From assembly GCA_948472945.1 (NCBI GenBank), contig CAOKVX010000002.1:186001-250000 (forward strand): a stretch of DNA of 64,000 nucleotides, written 5' to 3'. Source of the stretch: an uncultured Clostridia bacterium. GTDB lineage: Bacteria; Bacillota; Clostridia; Lachnospirales; Lachnospiraceae. Shown one piece after another: positions 8,870 through 48,462 of this stretch; within the stretch, counting starts at the first letter, position 1; each line of letters starts with the position of its first letter. The translations under genes and the position numbers were made by a program. The notes below the pieces were generated by a model that was given only the letters and a program-made list of their open reading frames with translations, did not search any database and was not told the DNA's origin.

Positions 8870-8889
8870 TTAGCTCAACGGCGCCAATT
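8870..8889. repeat. 20-bp dispersed repeat, copy 1
   Basis: The 20 bases here (first half TTAGCTCAACGG) are an exact reverse-complement match to 37740-37759. There the sequence forms one arm of a palindrome; here the other arm is missing. It lies just after the stop of the sensor kinase gene, as the second copy lies just after the stop of the xylanase gene. Confidence 0.75.
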
Positions 8890-8893
8890 GTCT

Positions 8894-36278: not shown

Positions 36279-37289
36279 CTAATCGTTTTGCTTAGAGTAA
36301 TACTGTTCCTCAAGAAGTTTTTTGAGGTCTTCTACACCGTACCACTCGCTGTTGTTGCCTGACGAATAAGAAAATCCATACTCAAGCTTTCGCCCGCCTT
36401 TGATAACTTTCGACTCATTCCAGAAATTCATGTGCGGGTATACTATATAGTGTTTGTCGTATTCATATGTATGCATTGAGTCCTCTGTTGTAACCATTAT
36501 CTCGTGCAGCTTCTCTCCTTCGCGTATGCCGACCTCAGGCATCTCACATCCCGGAAGCATCGCCTGCGCAAGATCCGTAATCTTAAATGACGGAATCTTA
36601 GATATAAATGTCTCTCCGCCTCGAGATTCCTCAAGCGCCTTTACGACGAGCTTCACACCGTCCTCAAGGCTTATCCAGAACCTTGTCATCCTGTAATCGG
36701 TAATAGGCAGCTCCGTACCGCCATTTTTTATTATATTATCAAAAAAAGGAATAACCGAGCCGCGGCTTCCCGCTACATTTCCATATCTGACTATTGAAAA
36801 ACTGATGTCCTTTCTGCCCGCATATGAATTAGCGGCAATGAACAGCTTATCCGAGACAAGCTTAGTTCCTCCATACAGATTAATCGGATTGACAGCCTTG
36901 TCAGTGGACAGCGCCACAACTTTTTTCACATCGGTATCAAGCGACGCATTAATCACGTTCGACGCCCCATTTATATTAGTCTTTATGGCCTCTAACGGAT
37001 TATATTCACATGCCGGAACCTGTTTCAGCGCTGCGGCATGAATCACATAATCCACTCCCGTCATTGCCCTTCTAAGCCTTGCCTCGTCCCTCACATCCCC
37101 GATAAAAAATCTGAGACGGCTGAACTTAGGATGATTTTTGTACTCGTTCTGCATAATAAACTGCTTGTATTCATCCCTTGAATATATAATTACCCTCTCA
37201 GGATTATAGTTATCCAAAACATAAGATGTAAAAGCATGTCCAAATGAACCTGTTCCACCTGTAATCAATAATGATTTATCGTTAAGCAT
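36279..37289 (-). CDS. pseB: UDP-N-acetylglucosamine 4,6-dehydratase (inverting), PseB-like
   Basis: 336 residues from the ATG at 37289 (AGGAG 8 bases upstream). SDR Rossmann motif ITGGTGSFGHAFTSYVL, YSRDEYKQF, HAAALKQVPACEYNP (in place of the usual Tyr catalytic region) and ALSTDKAVNPINLYGGTK are hallmarks of PseB/FlaA1-type enzymes. It converts UDP-GlcNAc into the 4-keto-6-deoxy-L-altro sugar. It is the first gene of the operon and sits directly behind the structured leader. PseC and PseH, which act next, are not seen in the window. Confidence 0.92.
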   Translation of the reverse strand: MLNDKSLLITGGTGSFGHAFTSYVLDNYNPERVIIYSRDEYKQFIMQNEYKNHPKFSRLRFFIGDVRDEARLRRAMTGVDYVIHAAALKQVPACEYNPLEAIKTNINGASNVINASLDTDVKKVVALSTDKAVNPINLYGGTKLVSDKLFIAANSYAGRKDISFSIVRYGNVAGSRGSVIPFFDNIIKNGGTELPITDYRMTRFWISLEDGVKLVVKALEESRGGETFISKIPSFKITDLAQAMLPGCEMPEVGIREGEKLHEIMVTTEDSMHTYEYDKHYIVYPHMNFWNESKVIKGGRKLEYGFSYSSGNNSEWYGVEDLKKLLEEQYYSKQND

Positions 37290-37521
37290 AATCTGAGCTC
37301 CTCTCACACTTTATTATTATAAATGACGTGCCGATGCGGCGCGTTATAAACCAGCTTAAATTCTGCACTGGCAGAGTTACTATACTATAAAAGCAGTGCA
37401 TACTCGTAAGCCTGCGGCTTACTCGTTCACGGGCTTTCGCCCTATCAGTACCTATACAAGCGGCTTAGACTATGAACAGTCTATCCGTCTTGTATAGGTA
37501 CTGGCACTGCTCAATGCTTTC
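37290..37521 (-). ncRNA. Structured leader RNA of the pse operon (cloverleaf plus two hairpins)
   Basis: Transcribed leftward from the promoter at 37528-37556, the leader of about 230 nt folds strongly. P1: GAGCAGTGC (37512-37504) with GCACTGCTT (37399-37391), nine pairs. It encloses three stems. P2: CAGTACCTATACAAG with CTTGTATAGGTACTG, 15 perfect pairs (37503-37489 and 37460-37446), topped by a further CGG/CCG and six-pair stem. P3: GGGC-GAAA-GCCC (37442-37431), a GNRA tetraloop. P4: GTAAGCC-GCA-GGCTTAC (37422-37406). Two hairpins follow at 37375-37362 and 37344-37326, then the pseB ribosome site. P1 and P2 abut and would stack coaxially. I do not recognise the family. No U-tract follows P1-P4, so it is not a simple terminator. 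Confidence 0.75.
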
Positions 37522-37527
37522 GTGGAC

Positions 37528-37556
37528 ATTATACCATAACAATATAATTATGTACA
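37528..37556 (-). promoter_or_regulatory. Extended -10 promoter of the pse operon
   Basis: Minus strand TGTACA (37556-37551), 17 bases, perfect TATAAT (37533-37528) preceded by TGG, giving a TGnTATAAT extended -10. Start expected near 37521, nine bases before the 5' arm of the leader's P1 stem. Confidence 0.8.
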
Positions 37557-37656
37557 GTAAATCCACTTTTGCCAATCACAAATCATCTCATATCCTTATG
37601 TATCGTTGAATCCCGCCATCTGTGATTGTTATATAATCCGTCACTATATAAAGATA

Positions 37657-37711
37657 TCACCGCGTGTATTGTATATTAATTATATGATACATAATACATT
37701 ACACGCGGTGA
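37657..37711. repeat. Long inverted repeat upstream of the pse promoter
   Basis: TCACCGCGTGTA (37657-37668) and TACACGCGGTGA (37700-37711) are perfect 12-base arms; the inner AT-rich part pairs further (GTATATTA... with ...TGATACATAATAC). It may end xylanase transcription or insulate the pse promoter. Confidence 0.6.
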
Positions 37712-37722
37712 AATTGTTTAAG

Positions 37723-37759
37723 TTAGCTCAACGGGTTCAAATTGGCGCCGTTGAGCTAA
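37723..37759 (-). terminator. Terminator-like palindrome after the xylanase gene; 20-bp dispersed repeat, copy 2
   Basis: TTAGCTCAACGG (37723-37734) and CCGTTGAGCTAA (37748-37759) are perfect 12-base arms with a 13-base loop. The right 20 bases are repeated exactly (reverse complement) at 8870-8889. It lies 17 bases past the xylanase stop; the tail on the minus strand is CTTAAACAATTT, only weakly U-rich. Confidence 0.6.
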
Positions 37760-37776
37760 GATATTTAATTGTTTAA

Positions 37777-40700
37777 TTAGTTCTTGTTAAATGCATTTAT
37801 AAAGCTGTAGTATGCCGGCTTTACGTCGTACATCGTCTTGTCAAACAGGAGCGGATGGCTGTTGCCCTCACTGCTGTAACCGCCTCTCCACGAGACTTCA
37901 TCACAAAGACCCCACCATGTGATTCCGGTAATGCCATGCTTTCTGTTCTGGATGTCAATTAATCCTTCCGTCAGAGTCTTAACATACTCCGCCTGCACCT
38001 CATACGTCTGTTCCGGTTTATTCGGGTCAATTCCCAAATCAAGCTCTGTAATCTGTACCTCAAATCCTGCATCTATAAAATTCTCTACAGTATTAAGATA
38101 ATGCTCTGCCGTCGGGAATGTAACTCCAAGATGGCTCTGCATTCCAACTCCGTCACATATCTTTTTCTCAGCATTAAAATAATTTATCATCTCGATTATA
38201 TTATCCTGACAGTCAAAATACGTATTGAAGTCATTGTAAACAAGCGTTACCTTGCCGGCAAGGCCATATTGCTCTAGGCAGTCATATGCGGTCTCAAATG
38301 CAAATTTTATATATCCCGGCCTGTTTTTAAGAACAGAACGGTTGCCGTACACTGCCGACCAGTTGCCTTCCGTCTTTCCGTTATCAGGATCATACTCATT
38401 ATTGTGCATATACTCGTTTGCAACGTCCCACGTATATACAATATCTTTATATGCCCCGTCGTCAAGCGTATATACATGATGCATGACGCTTCTTATATAC
38501 ATTTCAAGCCTTGCATTCATCGTCGCCTCGTCAACATACGCCGCATTCTTATCATATCCTTCCCTGAAAAAGAATTCAGGAGTCTGTGCATGCCATACAA
38601 GCGTATGGGCTCGTAGCTTTAAGCCCCTCTCTTTCGCAATTCTAAGAACATTGTCAAGTGTGTCAAACTGAAGCTCCGGAACCTTATCTTCGGCATAGCT
38701 GTCAGGAATAACGTAATCTTCCGTATTCTTTCTTGCCTCATCAACGCCGATTAATGTTGGAGCACCGAGTATTGCGTCAGGCTTCATCTCATTTTCAAGA
38801 GAAATACTCGAATAATGCTCGGCAACATATTCCACGGTCCTAATCTGTTTTAACTGCGAATAGTTGATACATGTTCCTATAACTCCAAACACAGGGTCTA
38901 CGATACTCCTAAGGCTCGTAAGCTCCGGCAAAGGTTCAGACGGAATAAATTTTATCGAATGAATCTTAATGTTATAGGAGTTATTGCTCTCCCGTCCCCT
39001 GATTCTTATTCCTATACCATACAGGGCGCCTTCTCTGTCCATGCCTTCAATTTTGTTAAGGTCATACTCAACGACAGTTTTCCCGCCTGCAGTCTCGGAA
39101 GTTCTGAACCCTGAATCTGCCAAAGTCATCGTATCAACCCAAACATTAGCAGGGTTTGCCTTATACATGCTCAACGACATCGGAACCGAGGCATTCTCCG
39201 CCGTAAGCTCAACTACAAGTTTACCATAATCAGAAAGATTAAACGGTTTCCCTGTACCTGCAGGCCAGAACACCATTCCTCCGCCTCCATAGCCCGGTTT
39301 AGCAGTAAAACTTACTCCGTCCTCCGAATAAGTTACATTGTCGACCTCAACAGCGCTATACTCATTGGATTTACTTATTTCCACGTCATAATGATTACTA
39401 TCAGCATCACCGTTATTGTCATCATCAGTTTTCACAAGTTTAAAAGCGTTTAATATAAAATTATAGAATCCCGGTTCCCATACACCCTCGGAATGTGCTG
39501 CCGGATATTCCGAATATATATGAGGTACTCCTCCTGTTGTAAGCGCATTGTGGTACCTTGTAGGTTCACTTTTGACAACACTATCATATATTCCGTGGCA
39601 TATCATGACAAATGTATTGTCTATATATTTGTCTGACAAAGTTATAGTATCTTCATCAGCGCCTTCAACCGCCAAAAGTCCGTCCTCACCCTGTCCAACG
39701 TCAGGATTAGTGTATGGAAGCAATCCAAATGTCGGACAATATCCCGCAACATATCCGAACAGGTCAGGTCTTGAAAGGCCTATATAGAGAGCTTCCCTTC
39801 CTCCCATCGACCATCCGCATACTCCGGTATTTTCCCTTCCTGTCTTGACAGAGAAATTATCCTCCATATATGGCATCAGGTTATTGATTAAATCCTCCCT
39901 GAAATCATCATAATGCTTATAGTTTTCAAGAGAGTGAACAGGATCTTCAGGCTCGTCAGATACACGTATTCCAGGGAATACGATTATCATATCCTCACAC
40001 TTGCCCTCTGCCCTCATATTACCAAACATTCTGGCAATTGAGCTCTCTTCAATATTTGTTCCAAACATCTCCTTAGTACATGCTATCCCGTGAAGCATAT
40101 ATACTACAGGATATTTTTTAGACTCATCATATCCCGGCGGAAGCACAACATTAGCGCTTCTGTTGGATTTCGTTATATCGGAATAATAGCTTATGTTTCT
40201 AAACTCTCCGTATTCAACGCCCTCCTTTAGTTCTTTAAAATCAGAAGGCACATCCTTAACTATCTCGGCCTTATCGGCAATACTTGGCTCCGGAAGCTCG
40301 GTAAGGAATTTTATTGATTTAATCTTTACGACTCTGCTGTTGCCGCCAAAGTCAATGTTGACAAGTTTAACAGCCGTAATTCCCCCTCCGGAGAAGCTAT
40401 CGTCAGCGCTATACGTAACAGTATTATAAACCGAGGATGAAACAAGTCCGTCTTTCATCTCATGCTGGCCTGCCGCCGTCTGTCCCATACCGTCAGTAAA
40501 TTGGTCGTCAAACAGATATGCGTTAACTGTATTATCACACGAATATGTTATCTGCACATGCTTATATTTTCCAATTTCAGATGAAGGATTCTTTATTATT
40601 ATCCCCGCAAACGCAGGTATAGTAACCGTGCTGTAGCCATCAGCGCTGCTGTCAACCGTAACCTCTTCGTCGGAAGTGCCATTGTCGCTAGACACATAGT

Positions 40701-42144
40701 CGCTGTTCGTTAAATCTGACGGTCCGATGATAATTTCCTCTGAAGGCTTTGGTGTTTCAGTTGGTTTTGCAGTCTGTTCAGGCACTGCGGTCTTCTGTGG
40801 CTCATCTGTTCCCGGTTTTGTTGTCTCTCCCGGCTCATTATATTTTGAATGCGAGAACACCACCGAAGTTATAGTTACAGTAGCAGGCGTTGCTGAAAGT
40901 ATATCGTTATTAGTATTGTTAAAAAACAGACATTTATTGACATACCATGCTTTTGTCGTACTGTTTCCGCTTATAGAAGCCTTATACTCACCGGACGATG
41001 CTCCCTTAAATACTCCGCCCCATGCTACTATATCCTCTGTATCTTTATCCTCATTCCTCCAAAGGCTACAGCCAAATCCGTCTCCGACATCCTTTGCATC
41101 TTTGTAGGTAACTGTAACCGTGTCAAAATTATTTTCTTCAAGTCCTTCAGGAAGAACAAATGAAACTCCGCTGTACTGTCCGCTGACTTTTATATTTACA
41201 GTCCCGTCATCATTAAGCGTAAATGATGCATTGTTCTGAGGCTTTACCGTGTCGTTTCCAAATACAAGAGTATATGGCGCCGAATAGTGGTCAATCATCT
41301 CCGCAGGAGGCGTTGGCCCCGGAGTCGGTGTTGGTTTTTGTGTAGGAGGCTGTGTCGGCCTGCTTGTAGGACCGGCAGTTGGTTCTGTTGTCGGTTTGTC
41401 TGTTGGTTTTTCCGTCGGTTTATCCGTCGGTTTGTCTGTTGCCGGCTTATCCGTCGGTTTTTCCGTCGGTTTATCTGTTGCCGGCTTATCTGTCGGTTTT
41501 TCCGTCGGTTTATCTGTCGGTTTTTCCGTCGGTTTGTCCGTCGGTTTATCTGTTGCCGGCTTATCTGTCGGTTTGTCCGTCGGCTTATCTGTTGCCGGCT
41601 TATCCGTCGGTTTATCTGTTGACGGCTTATCTGTCGGTTTGTCCGTTGGTTTATCTGTTGACGGCTTATCCGTTGGGACATCCGTAGGTTTATCCGTCGG
41701 CGACTGTGTCGGCCTGTCCGTTGAAGACTGTATTGGCTTATCTGTCGCAGACTGAGTACTCTGAGGTCCGTCCGATAAGTGAGGACCCGATGGCGGATTC
41801 GTAACATTCGTCACCGGTGTAGGCGTACTCTTTTTTGCAGGACTTACCTTAACATTACATTTTAACTTTTTGGTACGTACGATTGCCCAAACCTTTGCCT
41901 TACCTTTCTTTACTGCTTTAACTTTACCCTTTTTAGATACCTTGGCAACTTTCTTATTGCTGGTTTTCCACTTAATTTTTCCCGAAGCATTCTTAACTTT
42001 AAGTTTGTAAGACTTGCCTACGGTTAAATTAAGCTTTTTCTTATTCAGCTTCATTTTGGCTGCCGCATCCGCTCCGTTTGGAGCATATACAGAGCCTGCT
42101 ACAATTGAAAAACTAATAAGAACTGCTAATAATCGTTTTTTCAT
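37777..42144 (-). CDS. Secreted bifunctional feruloyl esterase (CE1) - GH10 xylanase with Ig-like and carbohydrate-binding modules
   Basis: 1455 residues. Signal peptide 1-27 (cleavage near GADAAA). Big2-like basic Ig domain about 30-105. A long Thr-Asp-Lys-Pro linker follows (about 115-285). Two beta-sandwich modules (about 290-440 and 485-625), probably carbohydrate-binding, precede a CE1 esterase (about 640-925) with nucleophile Ser779 in GWSMGGREA and HSEGVWEPGFYNF near its end. A third beta module (about 940-1090) leads to a GH10 xylanase (about 1095-1455) with acid/base Glu1244 in WDVANEY and nucleophile Glu1367 in QITELDLG. It cuts xylan and releases ferulate side groups outside the cell. 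No LPXTG or SLH anchor; the Lys-rich Ig domain and linker may hold it to the wall. AAGGAG precedes the ATG. Confidence 0.95.
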   Translation of the reverse strand: MKKRLLAVLISFSIVAGSVYAPNGADAAAKMKLNKKKLNLTVGKSYKLKVKNASGKIKWKTSNKKVAKVSKKGKVKAVKKGKAKVWAIVRTKKLKCNVKVSPAKKSTPTPVTNVTNPPSGPHLSDGPQSTQSATDKPIQSSTDRPTQSPTDKPTDVPTDKPSTDKPTDKPTDKPSTDKPTDKPATDKPTDKPTDKPATDKPTDKPTEKPTDKPTEKPTDKPATDKPTEKPTDKPATDKPTDKPTEKPTDKPTTEPTAGPTSRPTQPPTQKPTPTPGPTPPAEMIDHYSAPYTLVFGNDTVKPQNNASFTLNDDGTVNIKVSGQYSGVSFVLPEGLEENNFDTVTVTYKDAKDVGDGFGCSLWRNEDKDTEDIVAWGGVFKGASSGEYKASISGNSTTKAWYVNKCLFFNNTNNDILSATPATVTITSVVFSHSKYNEPGETTKPGTDEPQKTAVPEQTAKPTETPKPSEEIIIGPSDLTNSDYVSSDNGTSDEEVTVDSSADGYSTVTIPAFAGIIIKNPSSEIGKYKHVQITYSCDNTVNAYLFDDQFTDGMGQTAAGQHEMKDGLVSSSVYNTVTYSADDSFSGGGITAVKLVNIDFGGNSRVVKIKSIKFLTELPEPSIADKAEIVKDVPSDFKELKEGVEYGEFRNISYYSDITKSNRSANVVLPPGYDESKKYPVVYMLHGIACTKEMFGTNIEESSIARMFGNMRAEGKCEDMIIVFPGIRVSDEPEDPVHSLENYKHYDDFREDLINNLMPYMEDNFSVKTGRENTGVCGWSMGGREALYIGLSRPDLFGYVAGYCPTFGLLPYTNPDVGQGEDGLLAVEGADEDTITLSDKYIDNTFVMICHGIYDSVVKSEPTRYHNALTTGGVPHIYSEYPAAHSEGVWEPGFYNFILNAFKLVKTDDDNNGDADSNHYDVEISKSNEYSAVEVDNVTYSEDGVSFTAKPGYGGGGMVFWPAGTGKPFNLSDYGKLVVELTAENASVPMSLSMYKANPANVWVDTMTLADSGFRTSETAGGKTVVEYDLNKIEGMDREGALYGIGIRIRGRESNNSYNIKIHSIKFIPSEPLPELTSLRSIVDPVFGVIGTCINYSQLKQIRTVEYVAEHYSSISLENEMKPDAILGAPTLIGVDEARKNTEDYVIPDSYAEDKVPELQFDTLDNVLRIAKERGLKLRAHTLVWHAQTPEFFFREGYDKNAAYVDEATMNARLEMYIRSVMHHVYTLDDGAYKDIVYTWDVANEYMHNNEYDPDNGKTEGNWSAVYGNRSVLKNRPGYIKFAFETAYDCLEQYGLAGKVTLVYNDFNTYFDCQDNIIEMINYFNAEKKICDGVGMQSHLGVTFPTAEHYLNTVENFIDAGFEVQITELDLGIDPNKPEQTYEVQAEYVKTLTEGLIDIQNRKHGITGITWWGLCDEVSWRGGYSSEGNSHPLLFDKTMYDVKPAYYSFINAFNKN
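41380..41760 (-). repeat. Tandem coding repeat (Thr-Asp/Glu-Lys-Pro units, 12 bases each)
   Basis: The linker of the xylanase is built from about thirty 12-base units (T-D-K-P, T-E-K-P and A-T-D-K-P variants), read on the minus strand. Long open frames in other frames here come from the repeat and are not genes. The array is a likely site of copy-number change. Confidence 0.85.
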
Positions 42145-46872: not shown

Positions 46873-48462
46873 TTATAACTTATTATATTCAGAAGGTGTA
46901 ATAAAACTTATATTCATATCCAGTTTATTAATCGACTCTGCAACTGCGATGTTAAACCTGTTGCCGTGCTCGGTATAATTTCTTATATTTGAACTGTAAT
47001 AATTCTGCTTTTCTGTCGAATATCCGTCTGCTCCTGCAAGCTCAACATTTCCGGCCTTGACGCTTTTAAGAAGCTTCAGGAGCATTATCAAACTGTTGCA
47101 GCCGTGTTCAAACGCACCCGACAGGCTGTTGTAATTAATATAAAAGTCCGCGCCGTCTTTTTCCATATTTGAAGTGACAATCGTCATGTATAGCGAATTT
47201 CCATTATTTCCACCGTCGTCACTGCTTTCATTGCTGCTTCGTCGTTTACTGTTGCTGAAAAATACAAAATCAGGTGAAAAAGCCTCCGGCACAAAATTAA
47301 CTCCGATTACAACAACGTCGTTGCTTCTTATATAATTAAGTATGTCTTCCCGATATTCTTTTATCGTAGCTCCGGGAGCTATTAACAGAATATTTTTTCC
47401 GTTTAACTCGCGCATAAGTTTTCTTCTGTCGACTGCGTCGTCAATCTGGTTATTTTTATAATCATCATATAACATATCCGCATATCCGGCGTCAAACACC
47501 GTCGTTTTGTCAGCATCGAACCTCGCTAATATGTGATTAATATCTCGGTTCGTCAGGTCCCCCTTTCCCAGATAATGTTCCGCATAGTTTCTGTGAAGGT
47601 TAAACTTAGCAGACAAAAAATATGCGGGCGTATATCCCCATTCCGACTCCCCTTTAAGCGGCGCTATATAGTCCTGAATTGCATCCATAAGGTAGTCGAT
47701 ATCATAATTTTTATCCGTATAGTCGTTGAGATAGTCCGCTATAAGCTCAACGGGCAGATTTCCCGGTATTCTTCCCATGCCCATAAGGCTCCCGTCGACA
47801 GCCACGGGCCTGTTCAGATGCTTATCAATAAAATTTTGGGCCAGACTGCAGCTCAGCGACATATTTTCATGCAAATGAAGCGAAACGCGGATATCCTTGT
47901 CAAGATTATTGTCAATCAGACTGGCAATACGGTCCAAATCCCGCCGCTTCATGCTGCCGAACGTATCTACGATAGAAAATTGATACGGATGTATATCATT
48001 GACCTGATTCAGTATCCAAAGTATTCTCTCATCGGAATACCCCATAATATTAATCGGATTGACGCTGAGCTTATATCCTTTTTCTTTTACCGTGCGCGCA
48101 AAATCCATTCCATCCTCAATGTCATAGTCGTGCGCGGTAACGCGAATCATCTCAATACCCTCCCCGTTATATGGAGAAAGCTTTTTTATATCGTAATTGC
48201 TCCTCATCGCCATAGCTGAAAAAATAGTCTCCCTCCTGTTTGCAGGAAGGAGCTTATTTAAATCCTCGATACGGCTGCATACGGTAACGTCCGGATTATA
48301 CCCGTCTACATTTCTCAAAAATCCTACTTCCACGACGTCAACTCCGGCCCTGACTAAAGCATGTACGACATCCTTAGCGCGTCTGAATCCCCATTGCCAG
48401 TCGTTTACATATCCTCCGTCGCGCAGCGTACAATCTAACAATTGCAAATCATATTTCGCCAT
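46873..48462 (-). CDS. HMGL-like pyruvate aldolase fused to a DUF115-like C-terminal domain
   Basis: 529 residues. The N-terminal TIM barrel (about 1-320) starts LLDCTLRDGGYVNDW, with VDTFGSMKRRD, HLHENMSLS and AVDGSLMGMGRIPGN: the motifs of the HMGL/4-hydroxy-2-oxovalerate aldolase family, which uses a divalent metal and pyruvate enolate. A linker leads to a second domain (about 350-520) with NILLIAPGATIKEY, VVIGVNFVPEAFSPDFVFFS and VELAGADGYS, resembling DUF115/GT42-type folds. It lies between KdsB-like and KdsC-like genes and overlaps the former by 14 bases. It probably builds, and perhaps helps transfer, a 3-deoxy-2-ulosonic acid. GGAG lies 10 bases before the ATG. Confidence 0.85.
   Translation of the reverse strand: MAKYDLQLLDCTLRDGGYVNDWQWGFRRAKDVVHALVRAGVDVVEVGFLRNVDGYNPDVTVCSRIEDLNKLLPANRRETIFSAMAMRSNYDIKKLSPYNGEGIEMIRVTAHDYDIEDGMDFARTVKEKGYKLSVNPINIMGYSDERILWILNQVNDIHPYQFSIVDTFGSMKRRDLDRIASLIDNNLDKDIRVSLHLHENMSLSCSLAQNFIDKHLNRPVAVDGSLMGMGRIPGNLPVELIADYLNDYTDKNYDIDYLMDAIQDYIAPLKGESEWGYTPAYFLSAKFNLHRNYAEHYLGKGDLTNRDINHILARFDADKTTVFDAGYADMLYDDYKNNQIDDAVDRRKLMRELNGKNILLIAPGATIKEYREDILNYIRSNDVVVIGVNFVPEAFSPDFVFFSNSKRRSSNESSDDGGNNGNSLYMTIVTSNMEKDGADFYINYNSLSGAFEHGCNSLIMLLKLLKSVKAGNVELAGADGYSTEKQNYYSSNIRNYTEHGNRFNIAVAESINKLDMNISFITPSEYNKL

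Follow-up and report, generated by a model that had tools for sequence, protein, structure and literature searches.

A dispersed, structured repeat of Clostridia joined to an extended −10 motif at the 5′ ends of unrelated genes in Lachnospiraceae

Introduction

Structured RNAs placed early in a transcript include the put RNA of phage HK022, the EAR element of Bacillus eps and the LoaP leaders, and small repeats, namely promoter-bearing MITEs such as the Correia elements of Neisseria, carry promoter parts to neighbouring genes. Dispersed structured repeats have also been described. BOX of Streptococcus pneumoniae occurs more often than expected between convergent genes and is almost restricted to the pneumococcus and its close kin (PMC3049150), and a 50-genome survey describes MRSC-65-2, a motif that contains a conserved UYCCGG repeat and whose orientation is inconsistent (PMC11109978). 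A large set of unnamed candidate structured RNAs comes from human microbiomes, and none of those named in the portion consulted fits the element studied here (PMC8040213).

We analyzed a stretch of 64,000 nucleotides, hereafter the window, from an uncultured bacterium of the Lachnospiraceae, in which a preliminary description had noted a structured leader in front of a pseudaminic-type (pse) operon. This leader structure is one copy of a dispersed element of about 150 nt and is not specific to the operon. Like the Correia elements and MITEs, it brings promoter parts, but unlike these it has neither target-site duplications nor outer terminal inverted repeats. With put, EAR and LoaP leaders it shares an early structured RNA that could act on the polymerase in cis; it differs from them in having no Rfam match and no association with LoaP, and in also preceding unrelated single genes. 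By description, it resembles BOX in being dispersed, structured and without an ORF of its own, in its variable number of tandem internal modules, in neighbours that have no functional theme, and in a probable effect on co-transcribed genes (PMC3049150). The differences are placement as a 5′ leader in 48 of 50 family copies, a −10 at a fixed distance, and occurrence of the RNA in eight families, no leader bias being described for BOX (PMC3049150). As with MRSC-65-2, it is a multicopy, structured, covarying motif that possibly acts as DNA, but, compared with the description in that survey, its consensus lacks a UYCCGG-type repeat and its orientation is consistent in its own family (PMC11109978). 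The kind of element thus lies between structured dispersed repeats such as BOX and leader RNAs, and what is new is the fixed coupling to a −10 together with the leader placement.

Results

The Copy in Front of the pse Operon

The covariance model R2 had one match within the window, at 37388-37538 (140.2 bits, E 5.3e-36). The parts of this copy and its surroundings, all on the minus strand, are the following:

37388..37538, minus strand: whole element, matched by covariance models R1 and R2
37551..37556, minus strand: −35-like hexamer TGTACA, 17 nt 5′ of the −10; native flank that differs between copies
37528..37536, minus strand: extended −10 TGGTATAAT, with the hexamer at 37528-37533
37511..37527, minus strand: discriminator GTCCACG and 5′ tail AAAGCATTGA, from per-position conservation
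37504..37510, minus strand: P1 closing stem, 5′ strand GCAGTGC, from alignment, covariation and model match
37446..37503, minus strand: P2 long arm, variable in sequence, nearly perfectly paired and with a conserved inner hairpin, from alignment and covariation
37431..37442, minus strand: P3 hairpin GGGC-GAAA-GCCC, within the most conserved block AUAGGGCGAANGCCCGUGANCGAG, from loop counts, covariation and identity
37403..37425, minus strand: P4 hairpin, whose base has tandem G.A pairs (CGAG...CGAG), from alignment and covariation
37393..37399, minus strand: P1 closing stem, 3′ strand GCACTGC, from alignment, covariation and model match
37290..37387, minus strand: rest of the leader, particular to this window; it contains the ribosome site and two further predicted hairpins and lies outside the element family
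36279..37289, minus strand: pseB-like gene behind the leader (Polysacc_synt_2, 336 aa, ATG at 37289)

The extended −10 TGnTATAAT runs from 37536 to 37528 and is separated by 17 nt from TGTACA (37556-37551), an arrangement that matched 10 of 12 consensus positions in a promoter scan; over 37200-37760, the scan gave seven sites, six of them besides that of the element, against 2.4 in shuffles. From the spacing, the transcript is predicted to start near 37521. The leader folded with an MFE of −97.9 kcal/mol (z −6.9), and none of 200 shuffles was as good. The plus strand folds comparably (z −8.3), as palindromes do, and since folding alone does not tell the strands apart, the sense strand was taken from the promoter and the gene orientation. 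The copy is no terminator according to a terminator scan, and the long pse operon lies downstream of it.

These data uphold the preliminary description in its core, a structured leader RNA with its own extended −10 that is absent from Rfam 15, and the four-way junction, the 15-pair perfect arm, the GGGC-GAAA-GCCC hairpin and the seven-pair hairpin were all present on the minus strand. The nine-pair closing stem folds as described, but the family supports seven closing pairs and not nine; likewise, the ordered leader that included two hairpins before pseB was predicted again, but only the 151 nt at 37388-37538 are the conserved element.

Some neighbouring features were also observed. A second short palindrome, TTAGCTCAACGG...CCGTTGAGCTAAG-like, lies at 37723-37759, 8870-8893 and 47742-47765 of the window, with a related copy upstream of lepA (L017:3338-3359); it had four matches in the window at ≤3 mismatches, two of them being the arms of one copy, versus 0.01 expected, and it is probably a repeated terminator-type hairpin. 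An AT-rich perfect palindrome, CACCGCGTG...CACGCGGTG, occupies 37645-37725, just beyond the 3′ end of a 1455-aa ORF (37777-42144), and loose microRNA matches to it were dismissed as chance. The minus strand about 1.8 kb to the right of the window encodes a LoaP homologue that scores above the curated cut-off (G000:C2:251844-252341), and the minus-strand genes at that end of the window may be its operon.

Fold and Covariation

In the MAFFT alignment of 14 own-genome copies, 97.8% of 545 cells were standard pairs and 14/39 pairs had changed on both sides, against 7.2 in shuffles; the covariation score was 0.292, compared with ≤0.097 for slid versions, which were ≤42.9% paired. When a gap was moved by script, 614/632 cells paired and 19/47 pairs covaried. 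For 69 diverse copies, which were the matches at E ≤1e-11 fitted to model R1, a choice that favours structure, 94.0% of 2592 cells were paired, 34/39 pairs had changed on both sides, and the score reached 0.620 against 0.042-0.091 when slid. Compensatory pairs were found in each of P1 (closing stem), P2 (long arm), P3 (GGGC hairpin) and P4 (seven-pair hairpin), and such changes were what the preliminary description had named as support for the structure. The family repeat is, as read from these alignments, an extended −10 joined at a fixed distance to a predicted four-way-junction RNA of about 140 nt.

Details of the hairpins varied between copies. The P3 loop was GAAA in six of the 14 aligned own-genome copies, GAAU in six, GACU in one and GAAC in one, so the GNRA loop described earlier holds for the window copy but is not the rule (8/14 differ). 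At the base of P4, 48/69 copies had tandem G.A (CGAG/CGAG in 34, UGAG/CGAA in nine, CGAA/UGAG in three, others in two), and all four positions were Watson-Crick in 10/69. Identity between genomes was highest in the junction-P3-junction block (0.85), followed by the part between the −10 and P1 (0.78), and was only 0.41 in the arm; copies were more alike within genomes (0.736) than between them (0.604). A pairing of the 5′ CGAAAGC with the 3′ strand of P4, present in the own genome, was rejected, as it is lost by eye when P4 changes in other genera. Arm pairs in the family copies were A-U 633 times and U-A 275 times, with 60/69 copies leaning this way; this excess hints at a terminator-like arm, which would be able to lower rather than raise expression. 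The pairing does not settle whether the element works as RNA or as single-stranded DNA, because G.U (45) exceeds A.C (27) only mildly.

Copies in the Own Genome, the Genus, the Family and the Class

Searched as DNA against its own genome, 37290-37556 gave 27 matches, and nearly all the full ones span 37393-37538 of the window (query 104-249). With R2, 22 matches were obtained, namely 14 full copies, one partial (shortened) copy, and seven that were module-only or on the reverse strand. Sixteen stretches around own-genome matches were compared: in the pse direction, full copies show a unique upstream part followed by TATGGTATAATGTCCACGAAAGCAATGAGCAGTGCC, a variable hairpin, GATAGGGCGAANGCCCGTGAACGAG, a second hairpin and a closing GCACTGC, and they share the extended −10 TATAAT, a conserved GCAWUGAGC tail and the four-way junction. 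Several have extra tandem P3-P4-P1′ modules, with periods of about 64, 65 and 86 nt. More than one P3-like module within 600 nt was found in 15/54 copies by a loose pattern search that misses arrays built of other units; dispersed copies with variable tandem modules are a form of modularity known from BOX. Some own-genome copies sit at contig ends, as is expected because tandem arrays break assemblies. The same tandem modules were seen at the contig ends L014:1-403 and the end of L023, and at the start of L021 and the end of L024, so that element arrays probably connect the contig pairs C3/C27 and C7/C15.

Seven of the 10 genus genomes have the element: the own genome gave 31 matches, G005 gave 12, and each of the others gave one to three. 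Across the family, the covariance model detected it in 151/397 genomes and 138/334 sampled genera, a lower bound since only seven candidates were scored per genome under strict filters; closer counts gave 15 matches in G304, six in G389, 18 in G193, 12 in G205 and 12 in G022. Over the class, R2 had matches in 28/391 genomes, some with weak E-values, and half of these genomes (14/28) belong to seven other families, with 41 matches in G767 and 13 in G697. The RNA is therefore present in eight families of the class Clostridia.

Coupling to the −10 and the Genes Behind the Copies

Among 89 distinct family copies, TATAAT was exact in 66 and had the TG extension in 59, and 79 had a good −10, which in 70 of the 79 ended exactly 10 nt before the GCAATGAGC tail. 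The first base of the −35 was T in 61/89 at 17-nt spacing, and the spacer was unconserved. TGG preceded TATAAT at 24/37 element promoters but at only 13/74 of the TGnTATAAT sites found elsewhere in these loci (p 1e-6), an excess that was clear in the own genome (8/11 vs 2/22) and not by itself in the other fetched family genomes (16/26 vs 8/18). This enrichment of G between TG and TATAAT points to the −10 being part of the element. The −10 score was low in 10/89 copies, including L098 solely through its shortened tail, and the low-scoring copies that were inspected lie behind a SAM riboswitch, behind tRNA genes or at the end of a gene.

To see what the copies precede, 54 were fetched with long flanks; four were at contig ends and 50 could be assessed, the downstream genes being chosen by a ribosome-site rule and Pfam. 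A same-strand gene followed 48/50 copies at a distance of 21 to 432 nt (p 2e-12), and the upstream gene was on either strand. The two exceptions were L126, with the next larger gene on the opposite strand, and L142, within an ORF. All downstream proteins but those of L020 and L109 were scanned (46/48), and 44/46 had a Pfam match. In the own genome, the genes led include pseB-like, lepA, polA, ABC-F-type ATPase, radical SAM and RNase H-like genes; over the whole scanned set, the products include DNA polymerase A, LepA, gyrase B, GreA, phosphofructokinase, SHMT, GTP cyclohydrolase, V-type ATP synthase D, response regulators and starch synthase, among others. The genes led have no common functional theme. 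ORF inspection indicated that many are single or short transcription units. In the shortest leaders, 21-45 nt separate the element from the start codon, without a constant expression platform. The preliminary description had linked the RNA to the pseudaminic-type operon and to long polysaccharide operons and had named multicopy occurrence at unrelated positions as evidence against its reading; such occurrence is what we found, and the link is not supported.

Promoterless Copies and Other Families

In G767, a genome of another family, 20 of the 41 copies were inspected. An exact TATAAT stood at the 5′ end in 1/20, the next gene was on the same strand in 8/20, and the upstream ORF was still open at the element start in 7/20. 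These copies occur in either orientation, behind terminators and where genes end, and their arm is a long A-tract/U-tract hairpin resembling a bidirectional terminator. The contrast with the family was significant (Fisher p 8e-7), and with TATAAT in 1/20 and a same-strand gene in 8/20, promoter coupling is not general to the whole RNA family. Consistent position and strand together with covarying structure, which mark a cis-regulatory leader, were thus found in the family (48/50) and not in G767 (8/20).

Promoterless copies start at the ends of other RNAs, 5S rRNA in L275 and L281 and tRNA in L055 and L058; near L261, ARAGORN placed a tRNA on the opposite strand. In L107, a SAM riboswitch (1364-1464) is directly followed by the element (1501-1653) and then by a gene that we take to be metK-like, giving two successive leader RNAs. 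Similarly, in a genome of another family, a T-box leader (L294:1879-2085) has the element directly after it, at about 2093, followed by a presumably valS-like gene; both gene names are judged from the N-terminal sequence. A weak match to the cspA thermoregulator was also seen at L287:1687-2134 (56.7 bits against a cut-off of 78), perhaps reflecting AT-rich composition only.

Changing Positions of the Element

The element at lepA was found in one of 10 genus genomes, being absent in nine congeners, and in 0/80 other lepA loci, a few of which end early upstream at contig ends. At polA it occurred in 1/9, being absent in the eight congeners with a polA match, while G005 had no polA match at the cut-off. 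At both of the loci tested, the position of the element is thus lineage-specific. By contrast, the loci L014 (own genome) and L066 (G005) have a common upstream flank and the element, with a different arm, so that some positions persist while arms change, perhaps by gene conversion. The copy L142 splits a TIGR02452-type ORF, after a −10-like TACAAT; 14 homologues aligned on both sides show a gap of about 50 residues there, and the boundary is approximate because they are only 24-29% identical. Different sites in related genomes and gene interruption, as expected of a mobile element, were accordingly found at lepA, polA and L142, without a nucleotide-level empty site: the sequence of the nearest congener could not be aligned around the lepA site; for L142, 40 relatives of G205 yielded no close ortholog (15 matched, the best besides itself at 39% identity), and plasmid homologues cover at most about half of the query.

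No target-site duplication was detected, as shared flank words had a mean of 5.15 versus 5.02 in shuffled pairs (87 copies). No terminal inverted repeats were found at the outer ends either, the only one near an end being P1, 28 nt inside the conserved 5′ end. A MITE or Correia-type element was rejected on these two grounds, and a fixed short target as in IS200/IS605 was rejected because the bases before promoterless copies differ by eye. BLAST with the window copy as sole query gave no match in phages or plasmids. In viral contigs, two exact patterns were unmatched; the gapped pattern allows ≤60 nt, and many arms are longer.

Comparison with Rfam and the Literature

Rfam 15 gave no match over the window at the gathering cut-off. 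At E ≤5, 17 weak matches fell in 37200-37780, none of them inside 37388-37538, and on 20 further loci the only match was the SAM riboswitch, beside the element and not over it. The comparison with Rfam called for by the preliminary description therefore agrees with its view that no known family covers the element. A literature search, with the supplementary tables of three surveys (PMC8040213, PMC11109978, PMC8632094) lying outside it, found no description of such an element, and an unnamed fragment may sit in the candidate-RNA sets of these surveys.

Discussion

We consider it probable that the element is a dispersed, structured, mobile repeat of Clostridia that here carries a promoter and becomes a cis-acting 5′ leader. 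A new copy would bring its own −10 to a site and would use a TTGnnn-like −35 about 17 nt upstream, either pre-existing or selected later. Transcription would start a few bases before the conserved GCAAUGAGC tail, and the element would thereby supply the downstream gene with a folded 5′ end as well as its start site. The RNA would act only in cis, the likeliest effects being protection of the 5′ end of the mRNA or an influence on the polymerase that has just transcribed it. From the sequence comparisons we infer that the −10 may be active, that the element may move or be copied, and that its cis action may bear on stability or on the polymerase. Neither a terminator nor a masked ribosome site is a fixed part of the element, which speaks against a ligand switch; together with the lack of a gene theme and the shortness of the smallest leaders, this is why cis action without a ligand is preferred.

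The main rival is a genuine regulon, in which one trans factor, be it a protein, a small molecule or a state of the ribosome or RNA polymerase, binds the RNA and selection adds genes. The junction block AUAGGGCGAANGCCCGUGANCGAG and the tail are 78-85% identical between genomes versus 41% for the arm, which exceeds the needs of folding, the tandem extra modules resemble added sites, and nearly all assessable family copies are leaders. Nevertheless, we regard this regulon as unlikely, because the downstream genes have no theme, the only candidate partner tested, LoaP, shows no association, and the G767 copies are not leaders. Those same G767 copies, with their mixed orientation and their sites behind terminators and where genes end, speak for a purely selfish palindrome of the REP/BOX kind with no host role, whose place beside promoters would come from its choice of landing sites, proposed to be −10 bubbles, terminator T-runs and the ends of stable RNA genes. 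The promoterless copies that abut 5S rRNA, tRNA, a T-box leader and a SAM riboswitch, the L142 copy after TACAAT, and the higher identity within than between genomes all agree with it. We still hold a role-free repeat to be unlikely, since the −35 signal at 17 nt and the near-total same-strand placement exceed what chance landing needs, and the junction block is kept better than neutral copies would be.

An improbable reading, in our view, is that of a leader for processive antitermination, either like put and EAR or as a target of LoaP, that helps the polymerase through long operons. The position at the very start of the transcript, a structure independent of gene function and the long pse operon downstream would fit it, but many of the genes led are single or short units and there is no Rfam match to EAR. 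The LoaP-dependent antitermination proposed in the preliminary description was not borne out: LoaP is over the cut-off in 46/397 family genomes, 19 of these 46 have the element versus 151/397 overall (Fisher p 0.63), and G205 (12 matches) and G389 (six matches) have no LoaP over the cut-off. The other early proposal, a riboswitch for nucleotide sugars, draws on a complex junction before one nucleotide-sugar gene in the window, and we judge it very unlikely, because the same RNA leads unrelated genes, among them those for DNA polymerase, LepA, gyrase, GreA and phosphofructokinase and the ABC-F-type ATPase, radical SAM and RNase H-like genes, and its shortest leaders leave 21-45 nt to the start codon without a constant expression platform.

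Returning to the mobile repeat that becomes a cis-acting leader, we tentatively put forward a further possibility: the leader may be self-spreading, an RNA that copies itself and its promoter to start after start of housekeeping genes, so that a regulon would be built by a mobile RNA and not by point mutation, and the promoterless form in other clostridial families, situated behind terminators, tRNAs and 5S rRNA, would be the older, parasitic ancestor. If this were true, unrelated genes would share one folded mRNA 5′ end and respond jointly to whatever recognises it. In the genomes examined closely, this covarying RNA family has about 5 to 40 copies per genome, and if the copies are active, many core genes, including those for polymerase, gyrase, elongation factors and sugar metabolism, would be expressed from a movable promoter-leader cassette. 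The element makes testable how a mobile sequence turns into a shared regulatory part.
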